From NCBI GenBank assembly GCA_013450215.1, contig JACDSH010000030.1:1-36485 (forward strand): DNA of 36,485 nt, read 5' to 3'. Shown piece after piece: positions 2,092-6,616 of the stretch; position 1 is the stretch's first letter, and the number at the start of each line of letters is the position of its first letter. The stretch comes from Nitrosospira sp. (lineage in GTDB: Bacteria; Pseudomonadota; Gammaproteobacteria; Burkholderiales; Nitrosomonadaceae). A program made the position numbers and the translations under genes. The notes beneath the pieces were generated by a model. The model was not told the origin of the DNA and did not search any database. It saw nothing but the letters and a program-made list of their open reading frames with translations.

Positions 2092-4188
2092 GTGATCATA
2101 ACCTTCCCCAACAGTCCCTTCAAGTTACATCAGCCTTTTGAGCCTGCCGGTGATCAGCCACAGGCGATCGCAAAACTCTTGGAAGGCATATCAGATGGAC
2201 TCGCATTCCAAACGCTCTTGGGTGTGACCGGGTCGGGTAAGACATTCACCATGGCGAACGTGATTGCGCAACTCGGACGGCCAGCAATCATCATGGCACC
2301 AAACAAGACTCTTGCCGCACAGCTCTATGCAGAGATGCGTGAATTCTTTCCGGAGAATGCGATCGAGTACTTTGTTTCCTACTACGATTACTATCAGCCA
2401 GAGGCCTATGTCCCTTCTCGTGATCTCTTCATCGAGAAGGATTCAAGCATCAATGCCCATATCGAGCAGATGAGATTATCCGCGACCAAGTCACTACTCG
2501 AAAGAGATGACACCATTATAGTTGCCACCGTGTCATGTATCTACGGAATCGGTGATCCTGTTGATTATCACGGAATGATTCTGCATCTGCGTGAGCATGA
2601 AAAGATTACACAACGTGAAGCCATCAAGCGTCTGACAGAGATGCAGTATGACCGTAACGAGACTGACTTTAACCGTGGGACCTTCCGTGTGAGGGGTGAT
2701 GTTCTGGACATCTTCCCGGCAGAAAGCTCGGAGGAGGCACTACGGGTCTCTCTCTTTGATGATGAGGTCGAGTCTCTCGCTCTCTTTGATCCGCTCACTG
2801 GGAGGATCCTTCAGAAGCTATCCCGTTACACGGTCTACCCATCGAGTCATTACGTCACTCCCAGGAGCACGACCTTACGCGCGATCGAGACCATTAAGGC
2901 GGAGCTGCGAGACCGTATCGAATTTTTTCATGCGAATAACAAGTTGGTCGAGGTTCAGAGGATCGAGCAACGAACCCGTTTCGATCTGGAGATGCTGAAC
3001 GAGCTGGGATTTTGCAAGGGGATCGAAAACTACTCGAGACATCTGTCCGGTAGAAATCCCGGTGAGCCACCCCCGACCTTGATTGATTATCTCCCGCCTA
3101 ATTCATTGATGGTGATCGATGAGAGCCATGTCACCATCCCACAGGTGGGGGGTATGTATAAGGGTGACCGATCTCGTAAAGAGAATCTGGTGGACTTCGG
3201 TTTCAGGATGCCTTCTGCACTAGATAACCGACCACTGCGTTTTGATGAGTTCGAGAGGATGATGCCGCAGACGGTATTCGTATCCGCCACCCCAGCCGAG
3301 TATGAGCGGGTTCATGCCAGTCAAGTGGTCGAGCAGGTGGTCAGGCCGACAGGACTCGTTGATCCGATCATCGAGGTACGACCTGCTACAACACAGGTCG
3401 ATGATCTGATGTCCGAGGTCAGCCTACGGACAGCTAAGAGCGAGCGGGTGTTGGTCACAACACTGACCAAGCGTATGGCCGAAGACCTGACCGATTACTT
3501 TTCAGATCACGGGATCAAGGTCCGTTACCTCCACTCGGATATCGACACGGTCGAGCGTGTGGAGATCATCCGTGACCTGAGGCTGGGCAAGTTTGATGTT
3601 CTGGTCGGTATCAATCTGCTGAGAGAGGGTCTGGATATTCCGGAGGTGTCTCTGGTTGCGATACTGGATGCCGATAAGGAGGGCTTCCTACGGTCAGAGA
3701 GATCTCTCATACAGACCATGGGACGCGCTGCCCGCCATATTAATGGTCGTGCCATCCTCTATGCTGATCGTGTGACCGAGTCGATGAAAAGAGCGATCGG
3801 TGAAACTGATCGAAGGCGCAACAAGCAGATCCTCTTCAATCAAGAGAATGGGATCACCCCGCGGAGCGTTCACAAGCGGATCAAGGACCTGATCGATGGT
3901 GTCTACAATATCGAGACCGCTCATCAACACCTCAAGGATGCTAAGGCGCAGGCCCGTTATGACTCGATGAGCGAGTTGCAGCTGGCGAAGGAGATCAAAC
4001 GGGTCGAGAAGCAGATGCTGGATGCTGCGAAGAACCTGGAGTTCGAGAAGGCCTCTGGATATCGCGACGAGATGAAGAAACTGAAGAGTAAGTTATTCGT
4101 TGGATTCATCGATCCCGATCAGGATCTACCGGAAGAGGTAGCGGAGAATAAGACTAAACTTAAACCACAGAGGAGGAGGGGGAGGTAA
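2092..4188 (+). CDS. uvrB: Excinuclease ABC subunit B (UvrB)
   Basis: UvrB is the damage-verifying helicase-like subunit of nucleotide excision repair; it is loaded by UvrA and recruits UvrC. The sequence follows E. coli UvrB almost end to end: Walker A GVTGSGKT (res 44-51), the beta-hairpin [10 protein letters not shown] that clamps DNA, the GTFRVRGD and [10 protein letters not shown] regions, DESHVTIPQ (motif II), SATPAEYE, and the motif V/VI block with LREGLD and QTMGRAARH. The UvrC-interacting UVR domain follows near the C-terminus ([18 protein letters not shown]). The length of 698 aa exceeds the usual 670-680: the N-terminus has a few extra residues after a GTG start, and a charged tail ends in RRRGR. 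No good Shine-Dalgarno precedes the GTG. It converges on the NrfJ-like gene with a shared hairpin. Confidence 0.97.
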
Positions 4189-4233: not shown

Positions 4234-4566
4234 TTATTTCTGTACAGTCGCCTCTGTGACAAAGATGATTCGGTCGAAGGTCTTGTTCAGTGTCTTGCTG
4301 TTAAAGTTATTCATCACCATACTCTGAACGAATTGGACACGGTCACCCACCTTTACACGGGTGGTCGGAGCTGCGATCCAGAAACGCTTGCCGTTATTTT
4401 CTAGTTCTATATAGGTGTAACCAGGAGCATCTAGGGTGGCGAGTATCTTGCCCTCACCTCCGGCAGCAGTCTTTGCAGCACCGGCAAGGGGGTTCGCGGC
4501 CGCTGTGAGCGGATTCATCAACGCAAATCCAATCGAAGCAATCACCGCCAAGTAAGATATCCTCAC
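4234..4566 (-). CDS. Exported NrfJ-like small protein
   Basis: The product (110 aa) starts with a clear Sec signal peptide: MRIS, a hydrophobic stretch, and an Ala-rich cleavage region ending TAAANP near residue 25. The mature part has the pattern of the small periplasmic domain annotated as NrfJ or NrfJ-related: GKILATLDAPGYTYIELE, then FWIAAP, VKVGDRVQF and NFNSKTLNKTFDRIIFV. NrfJ genes accompany some cytochrome c nitrite reductase operons, but homologues occur alone and the role is not well defined. No nrf genes are in this window. The start is GTG at 4566 with a GGAGG ribosome-binding site 4-5 nt upstream. Its promoter, ribosome-binding site and signal peptide are near-duplicates of those of the next gene upstream. 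Confidence 0.75.
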   Translation of the reverse strand: MRISYLAVIASIGFALMNPLTAAANPLAGAAKTAAGGEGKILATLDAPGYTYIELENNGKRFWIAAPTTRVKVGDRVQFVQSMVMNNFNSKTLNKTFDRIIFVTEATVQK

Positions 4567-4642
4567 AACGCCTCCAGTATATTCATTGATTATAAAGATC
4601 GTTTATGGGGTGCATGATACACCTCAATATTATTTGTTCCAA
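4490..4642 (-). repeat. Duplicated promoter/RBS/signal-peptide block, copy A
   Basis: This block is copy A of a repeat whose copy B lies at 5092-5244 on the same strand. By my hand count the first 26 codons match at 64 of 78 bases, and the 5' untranslated region keeps TCAATGAATATAC plus the -35/-10 arrangement. Homology ends where the mature proteins begin, which are unrelated. Confidence 0.8.
4614..4642 (-). promoter_or_regulatory. Predicted sigma70 promoter of the NrfJ-like gene
   Basis: On the minus strand TTGGAA (4637-4642) and TATCAT (4614-4619) are separated by exactly 17 bp. The same arrangement is kept in the duplicate copy at 5216-5244, which supports function by conservation. The transcript leader would be about 40 nt. 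Confidence 0.6.
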
Positions 4643-4708
4643 CCCGTCACCCCGCGAGTATCCCACCGATGGGACTGATGTCATGAGATGAGTAGGGGGC
4701 TGTATATT

Positions 4709-4729
4709 GACTCCCTCTATGCGAGGGTC
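4709..4729 (-). terminator. Possible weak terminator after the CcmI-like gene
   Basis: On the minus strand GACCCTC-GCATA-GAGGGAGTC forms a short GC-rich hairpin 13 bp beyond the stop codon at 4743. No T-run follows, so rho-independent termination is uncertain. Confidence 0.35.
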
Positions 4730-4742
4730 GGTCGAATCAGAA

Positions 4743-5168
4743 CTAGGGGATCTGCTGATCGATAACGATACTAATATCCTTATCACCCGGCTTTACTTTC
4801 TGACTCAACCCTTGCAAATCGCCGCTCTCTGGCATGGCCTTACCCGACTTTGAGATTCTGGCAGTGATGATGAGTTGTGGAACGTTAGAGATTTTTAAAT
4901 CTGGGCGAGCTCCCATTCCATCAGTCAGCAAGAACGAGACAGGCAAGTCTTTAACCTTCTTCACCGTTATGGCTCGAGGCATGGGGGGGCCTTCTGTCGA
5001 GCGAGCGAAGATGAAGAGTGTATCCTCGGGTGATGCTTTCCCGGCGATTGAAGCGCTTAAGGTAACAGTTCCAGAGAGGGTTCCTGAGGTTGGGTTTGCA
5101 GCCGCAGTAAATGGGTTCATTAGGGAAAATCCAATCGAAGTAATCACCGCTAAGTAAGATATCCTCAC
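4743..5168 (-). CDS. Exported protein resembling the CcmI/CycH C-terminal domain
   Basis: A 141-aa exported protein. The signal peptide is almost the same as that of the NrfJ-like neighbour and ends TAAANP. The mature part matches the periplasmic C-terminal domain of c-type cytochrome biogenesis protein CcmI/CycH: GTVTLSASIAGK, SPEDTLFIFAR, GPPMPRAI, KDLPVSFLLTDGMG, VPQLIITARISKSGKAMP, GDLQG, and a final VIDQQIP. In CcmI this domain binds the apocytochrome C-terminus for haem attachment; here it stands alone without the membrane and TPR parts or other ccm genes. I chose GTG at 5168 because it aligns with the neighbour's start and follows GGGAGA at 4-nt spacing; an in-frame start at 5237 would place the signal peptide internally. 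Confidence 0.77.
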   Translation of the reverse strand: MRISYLAVITSIGFSLMNPFTAAANPTSGTLSGTVTLSASIAGKASPEDTLFIFARSTEGPPMPRAITVKKVKDLPVSFLLTDGMGARPDLKISNVPQLIITARISKSGKAMPESGDLQGLSQKVKPGDKDISIVIDQQIP

Positions 5169-5244
5169 AATGTCTCCCGTATATTCATTGAATAAAAATA
5201 GTCTTTCAGAGTGAGATGATACGCCCTCAAGACCCATTGTTCAA
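5092..5244 (-). repeat. Duplicated promoter/RBS/signal-peptide block, copy B
   Basis: Copy B of the block at 4490-4642, in the same orientation. Conserved elements include the -35/-10 pair, a TTGAGG-type stretch in the spacer, TCAATGAATATAC before the ribosome-binding site, and the codons for the signal peptide. After codon 26 no similarity to copy A is visible. Confidence 0.8.
5216..5244 (-). promoter_or_regulatory. Predicted sigma70 promoter of the CcmI-like gene
   Basis: On the minus strand TTGAAC (5239-5244) and TATCAT (5216-5221) are separated by 17 bp, the same spacing and -10 as the NrfJ-like promoter. The leader to GTG at 5168 would be about 40 nt. Confidence 0.6.
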
Positions 5245-5270
5245 AACTTCACCGTGAATTGATGCCATCT

Positions 5271-5882: not shown

Positions 5883-6262
5883 AATAACTCCTCTAATGAT
5901 AGGGTGTGTGTAATGGATGCCATGACAGATATGAGTCTGAGATTGGGGGTTGCTTAATTATCGTTGAATTCAGTGCTCAGTGCATCCGGCCACCGATAGG
6001 CAATCACTCGGCAGGTCGACGATCTTAAGCAGAAAGATGCTGGAGAGTGGGGATCGACCAGACGAATGGGATCAGCTATTGCTCGAAGCGCAGACTGAGG
6101 ATGATCGTCTGAACCAGATCAGAATAGGGCAGGTTTATCCGTGAATTGAGGGTTCTTAGCTTCTTTAGTGGGTGATAGTCAATTATAAGTTTTAGTGGTA
6201 TTGTGATATTGGGTGTGAATTGACAGATTAATCGTTTCTCTGACCATCATGGGGGGATTTAT
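5883..6262. other. 380-bp intergenic region between nitroreductase and His-rich gene
   Basis: This divergent region should hold promoters for both flanking genes. A TTGACA at 6220-6225 and a strong GGGGGGA ribosome-binding site at 6251-6257 precede the His-rich gene, but no good -10 accompanies the TTGACA. A 35-codon frame at 6037-6144 (ATG to TGA) reads MLESGDRPDEWDQLLLEA and continues in a protein-like way; upstream it stays open from about 5971. It may be a gene remnant. Nothing else was recognised. Confidence 0.4.
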
Positions 6263-6616
6263 ATGAGTAGCTGCAAGGAACATCAGAATCACGAGCACCA
6301 GCATGGCCCCGGATGTGGGCACTTGGCCATTAACCATTCCGGACACACTGATTACCTCCACGATGGACATCTGCATCATGTCCATGGGAATCACGTGGAC
6401 GAGCATGTTCTTGAGGTAAGTTCGGCGAATCCCGCTCACTGCACTCCACAGCATGTCTGCGGAGGCCATGACCGCGGGCACGTTCATGGTGATAATTGTG
6501 GACATCCACAGATCCCTCATGGGGATCATATTGACTACTTAGTCGATGGTCATCTGCATCACCCGCATTTAGACCACTGCGATTTTCATGGGTCGTTGAA
6601 CCTGCAATCAGCGTGA
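6263..6616 (+). CDS. Histidine-rich protein with two tandem metal-binding-like repeats
   Basis: A 117-aa soluble protein with 28 His by my count and six Cys. It consists of two copies of a unit of about 35 residues: CGH, a short link, H-GDH/SGH, then DYL-DGHLHH and H..H.D.H. Copy 1 covers residues 17-48 and copy 2 residues 78-108, joined by a linker with two more Cys (AHC, HVC). There is no signal peptide or membrane segment, so it is probably cytosolic. Proteins with this DYLVDGHLHHPH pattern occur in proteobacteria as hypotheticals, sometimes near metal transporters. The composition suggests zinc, nickel or copper buffering, but that is inference. The start ATG follows GGGGGGA at 5-nt spacing. 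Confidence 0.82.
   Translation: MSSCKEHQNHEHQHGPGCGHLAINHSGHTDYLHDGHLHHVHGNHVDEHVLEVSSANPAHCTPQHVCGGHDRGHVHGDNCGHPQIPHGDHIDYLVDGHLHHPHLDHCDFHGSLNLQSA

Follow-up and report, generated by a model that had tools for sequence, protein, structure and literature searches.

A Young Chimeric Gene in a Nitrosospira Lineage, Apparently Assembled from the 5′ Block of an nrfJ-like Gene and the 3′ End of ccmI

Results

A Signal Peptide Fused to the C-Terminal Domain of CcmI

In this work, we describe a chimeric gene (4743–5168, minus strand; 141 aa) in which the signal peptide of an adjacent nrfJ-like gene is fused in frame to an Ig_CycH domain. The sequence comparisons indicate that this is a young gene that arose once, in the lineage of the genome under study (G000) and its sister G004, and it can hardly be doubted that its parts would derive from the 5′ block of the organism's own nrfJ-like gene and the 3′ end of its own ccmI. 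The window, i.e., the whole stretch of 36,485 nucleotides that was analyzed, is contig C16 of G000, a 1.6 Mb genome (99.8% complete) of a small-genome relative of ammonia-oxidizing bacteria. The sister genome is CAJBQQ01 (isolate Loc090116-7m_bin-1114), and the other same-genus relatives matched are MAGs that carry the labels Nitrosomonadaceae, Nitrosovibrio or Nitrosospira.

The mature part of the chimera matches Ig_CycH (PF23892) with E = 8.5e-31 and 106 bits (Pfam cut-off 27), while neither the CcmI N-terminal region (TIGR03142) nor the TPR (PF23914) was matched in Pfam (E up to 1) and NCBIfam searches. The full-length ccmI of G000, which comes after ccmF-G-H-like genes on contig 23, encodes all three parts, and its final 338 nt (G000:C23:22066-22403) are the parent of the chimera segment 4744–5081 (minus strand; Ig_CycH domain and stop codon), with 82% DNA identity and a match that runs to the stop codon. 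At the protein level, the Ig part is 86% identical to the domain of the organism's own CcmI. The match to nrfJ runs as far as 5092 and that to ccmI sets in at 5081, which leaves a junction of 5082–5091 (minus strand) and places the fusion point within about three codons, where the signal peptide ends and the folded domain begins. The AlphaFold model of the isolated domain is confident (pLDDT about 90 over residues 31–141). Unlike CcmI/CycH, the chimera lacks the N-terminal membrane helices and the TPR, and it has a promoter of its own and a signal peptide of the cleavable type. It starts with GTG at 5168, where the sister genome has ATG. We preferred this start over the upstream alternative at 5237 because the short run of codons that the latter would add overlaps with the promoter and shows a dN/dS of 0.46.

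The Duplicated 5′ Block

According to the original prediction, two unrelated exported proteins share a duplicated promoter, leader, ribosome-binding site and signal-peptide block, as if a 5′ expression and export cassette had been recombined onto a second coding sequence. The duplication is real: an unprompted repeat search returned a 134-nt direct repeat (4490–4623 vs. 5092–5225) with 78% identity, and a BLAST search of the block against its whole own genome retrieved the second copy with E = 2e-26. The same search gave no third copy above chance, which rules out a dispersed mobile 5′ cassette. In a gapped alignment the block reaches slightly beyond the −35 box, with limits near 4651 and 5253, so that the original copy, which comprises the nrfJ-like gene's promoter, leader, RBS and signal peptide, occupies 4490–4651 and the derived copy, with the leader TCAATGAATATAC, occupies 5092–5253, both on the minus strand. 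Further upstream no significant similarity is left (p = 0.14 for the sister genome and 0.69 for the window genome), and an extension of the block into the 3′ end of the nitroreductase gene, suggested by one gapped alignment, was rejected for the same reason. The limits initially proposed for the feature (4490–5244) proved too narrow, as it covers about 4237–5253 with both genes on the minus strand.

Within the first 26 codons the two genes differ at 14 of 78 bases (11 synonymous and 3 non-synonymous differences), in exact agreement with an earlier hand count of 64 identical bases. The predicted −35/−10 spacing of 17 was found at both genes, in the sigma-70-like promoters TTGGAA-17-TATCAT of the nrfJ-like gene (4614–4642, minus strand) and TTGAAC-17-TATCAT of the chimera (5216–5244, minus strand); the sister genome has TTGGAA-18-TATCAT in front of the chimera. 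The TTGGAA, TATCAT and RBS of the nrfJ-like gene are kept in all seven genus members examined, bar one base of the −35 region in G006.

The nrfJ-like gene (4237–4566, minus strand; GTG start, stop codon at 4234–4236) encodes 110 aa comprising a signal peptide and a small beta-barrel domain, and is evidently the ancestral donor of the block. Its homologues were found in 20 of 41 relatives; within the genus, 7 of 9 members have the gene, and it occurs across the wider family. Little is found in the literature on NrfJ function. The mature domain has no Pfam match; AlphaFold models it as a beta barrel at residues 36–109 (pLDDT >90) whose structural neighbours are OB-folds. As predicted, the two mature domains are unrelated: the mutual match of the proteins is confined to about residues 1–35, and the conserved mature NrfJ-like domain (YTYMEL...FWIAAPTT...NFxSKTLNRTF) is absent from the chimera, which shares with this family only the 5′ block and signal peptide. 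Sequence searches of the PDB gave no useful match for either protein.

Genomic Surroundings

Upstream of the chimera lies a nitroreductase-family gene (5882–5271); the chimera (5168–4743) and the nrfJ-like gene (4566–4234) come next, all three on the minus strand, and then uvrB, which is encoded on the plus strand and ends at 4188. In five sister species the nitroreductase gene lies on another contig, so the junction between it and the chimera is new as well. No recognized cytochrome or ccm gene lies near the chimera within the window, and ccmI and the chimera of G000 are on different contigs.

Two further features of the surroundings were observed. An intact PrlF-YhaV toxin-antitoxin pair of G004 (L042:503-1338, minus strand) is not among the window ORFs, where by eye only a piece at 6020–6145 (plus strand) resembles the YhaV C-terminus. 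The gene at 6263–6616 (plus strand) encodes a 117-aa protein, rich in histidine, in which HGDHxDYLxDGHLHH-type motifs recur and which probably binds metal; it is also found near the nrfJ-like gene in G001.

Origin, Timing and Selection

The chimera was found in 2 of 125 Nitrosomonadaceae genomes, G000 and its sister G004, and nearly all the other Ig_CycH matches in these genomes lie in long ORFs typical of ccmI. Relatives have the nrfJ-like block and no second gene, as in G001, where uvrB and the nrfJ-like gene occur without the chimera, and this comparison failed to refute the recombination of the block onto a second coding sequence. A close relative, G005, gave no nrfJ-like match in an assembly that is only 51% complete. 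Maximum likelihood trees place the Ig DNA of the chimera with the ccmI genes of G000, G004 and G005 (100/100), where it branches as the sister of these three sequences, while the 5′ block of the chimera joins the nrfJ of G000 and G004 (100/100); these placements date both halves to the same recent lineage. The agreement of two genomes from separate assemblies makes an assembly artefact very unlikely. A tandem duplication across ccmI and nrfJ, of the kind proposed below for Nitrospira, was considered and rejected, the spacer behind the chimera being unlike the sequence behind ccmI (scores 7–9, null mean 9).

Between G000 and G004, the chimera shows a dS of 0.24, a dN of 0.03 and a dN/dS of 0.125 over the whole gene, and 0.11 over the Ig part, where 16.5 synonymous differences stand against 6.5 non-synonymous ones. 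The corresponding dN/dS values of the parents are close to these, with 0.06 for the Ig part of ccmI, 0.10 for full-length ccmI and 0.12 for nrfJ. As estimated from this one pairwise comparison of two carrier genomes with about 31 substitutions, the values show the chimera to be kept as a protein under purifying selection. Its frame, promoter, RBS and domain are intact in both genomes at a dS of about 0.24.

Parallel Genes in Nitrospira

Stand-alone genes in which a signal peptide precedes Ig_CycH were also found in hao-bearing Nitrospira (L077, L078, L080, L081, L130, L131, L134–L145), the hao cluster being the sole basis for calling these genomes ‘comammox-like’. In one Nitrospira genus, a close, separately encoded copy occurs in 14 of 32 genomes (E of 3e-64 or better), while in a fifteenth genome, G513, the copy is broken near its end. 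In nearly all the loci read, the gene adjoins ccmI and haoA within ccmF-ccmG-ccmH-ccmI/haoA-haoB-cycA(-cycB) clusters, whose gene families were checked for L130. When its first 69 coding bases were ranked against the 274–781 ATG/GTG positions of each locus, haoA was the best match in 12 of the 12 loci tested (54–74% identity, z 7.4–16). In addition, the ccmI-to-gene and gene-to-haoA spacers are homologous in seven loci, six beyond all 300 shuffles and one with p = 0.01. L130:4367-4849 (minus strand), L144, L141, L138 and L135 exemplify the loci with the haoA-like signal-peptide block and homologous spacers. This layout would be the product expected from one tandem duplication with its ends inside ccmI and haoA.

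The architecture is the same as in the window and the construction similar, with a neighbour's exported-protein front end joined to a ccmI 3′ end; the Nitrospira genes differ in having the front end of haoA instead of that of the nrfJ-like gene, in lying beside ccmI and haoA, and in their homologous spacers. In the tree, the stand-alone domains of Nitrospira cluster with the ccmI of Nitrospira (100/98), as the window domain does with its own genus, and because each domain groups with the ccmI of its own lineage, the two fusions are independent.

Other forms of the domain were observed. In other Proteobacteria, L114 carries a stand-alone Ig_CycH with a signal peptide and L113:4801-5271 (minus strand; G059) a lipoprotein-like one, its N-terminus ending in a lipobox-like LVGC. 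Other Nitrospira encode a divergent 150-aa relative with an N-terminal hydrophobic segment, which looks membrane-anchored (L126:4477-4929 and L127:4304-4756, plus strand; L129:4037-4486 and L133:4762-5214, minus strand), and which in all four loci lies between siroheme-synthase-like and HNH-endonuclease-like genes (named by eye). CcmI proteins with tandem Ig_CycH domains were found in Nitrospira and in one genome each of the Nitrosomonadaceae and Methylococcaceae, with three domains in L131 and two in L130, L135–L138, L142, L077, L032 (G017) and L106. The domain seems prone to duplication.

Discussion

The results support the view that an expression and export cassette was recombined onto a second coding sequence, its halves tracing to the nrfJ-like gene and to ccmI. 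To the original prediction they add the direction (from the nrfJ-like gene to the chimera), the organism's own ccmI as the donor, the timing, the selection and the Nitrospira parallel. Like other chimeric genes formed by partial duplication, this one consists of two partial duplicates with a new frame and an inherited promoter, and the individual fusion event is of a known kind. The cases found in the literature searched are mainly eukaryotic or concern engineered secretion, whereas here the promoter and export signal moved as one unit in a bacterium, where both parental genes are identifiable and still present in the genome.

What may the product do? CcmI has been reviewed as an apocytochrome chaperone of the CcmFHI complex that also binds apoCcmE, and in which the TPR is distinct from an alpha-beta region at the C-terminus (PMC3884852). 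The published evidence consulted on apocytochrome binding concerns the TPR part or the whole periplasmic region of CcmI, not the Ig_CycH domain. A precedent for an additional factor is SirG of Shewanella, a second chaperone, partly redundant with CcmI, for one special cytochrome (PMC6976685). We propose that, with the promoter, leader, RBS and signal peptide copied from the adjacent nrfJ-like gene as its front end and the copied last 338 nt of ccmI as its mature part, the chimera would be expressed much like the nrfJ-like gene, and its product exported by the Sec pathway and cleaved after the Ala-rich site. The two genes would then be co-regulated and their products sent to the same destination, as was originally suggested. 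The resulting soluble periplasmic protein, a free additional copy of the C-terminal domain of CcmI, might occupy or supplement CcmI partners (apocytochrome, CcmF/CcmH, CcmE), whereby the maturation of c-type cytochromes might be assisted or tuned. The fact that an equivalent gene adjoins ccmI and haoA in hao-bearing Nitrospira lends support to such an accessory function. We put forward this specific role tentatively, rating its chances at slightly below even, while the explanation as a whole (origin, retention and CcmI accessory role), weighted to its demonstrated part, appears likely.

With the same origin, the free Ig_CycH domain could instead act as an inhibitor or decoy which competes with CcmI and lowers maturation when the nrfJ-like promoter is on. 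Having neither TPR nor membrane anchor, the protein could fill a docking site without delivering a substrate; however, the position of the Nitrospira parallel among ccm and hao genes suggests assistance, and we regard inhibition as unlikely. We would give an equally low rating to a departure of the domain from cytochrome maturation, with the product now being a small beta-sandwich protein of a general periplasmic or pilotin-like kind. The best structural neighbours of the domain, a small beta-sandwich of similar size, are the secretin pilotins AspS/ExsB (5wec, Z 9.1; 2yjl, Z 8.1; rmsd 3.5), and the lipoprotein-like and the other exported stand-alone version in other Proteobacteria would fit this view. 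This likeness is a hint only, with a Foldseek E of only 2e-3 and 13–15% identity; the window protein lacks a lipobox, and YscW (PF09619) was neither matched by the chimera in Pfam (E up to 1) nor found in the genome of G000. Moreover, the 86% identity to the organism's own CcmI, together with the low dN, points to retained surfaces.

Far less probable is a chimera without function, left behind by recombination with a frame that is open by chance. Its restriction to one lineage and the rearranged surroundings (the nitroreductase gene elsewhere in sister species, the toxin-antitoxin pair of G004 missing among the window ORFs) would be in keeping with such an origin, but this explanation is strongly disfavoured by the dN/dS of 0.11–0.125, similar to that of ccmI, by the excess of synonymous differences in the Ig part, and by the intactness of the gene in two diverged genomes. 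Finally, although signal peptides are compositionally similar, convergence towards a generic signal peptide can be dismissed, since the similarity spans about 75 non-coding upstream bases and third codon positions, the genome-wide match has E = 2e-26, and the chimera block nests inside nrfJ together with the G000/G004 blocks, which reflects descent.

The chimera represents a clean, datable case in which a bacterial gene was built by joining the front end of one gene, for regulation and export, to the functional domain of another, with both parents still present and the selection on its product measurable. It is conceivable, if somewhat doubtful, that nitrifiers repeatedly build exported CcmI Ig_CycH proteins by capturing the front ends of neighbouring genes, and that these form a previously undescribed class of soluble maturation factors; we found no description of such repeated, independent making of these proteins in the open-access papers searched. 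The chimera offers a direct test of this little-studied CcmI domain acting alone, and the second independent case, beside haoA, points to a benefit of having the CcmI C-terminal domain free in the periplasm of cells with a heavy cytochrome c demand.
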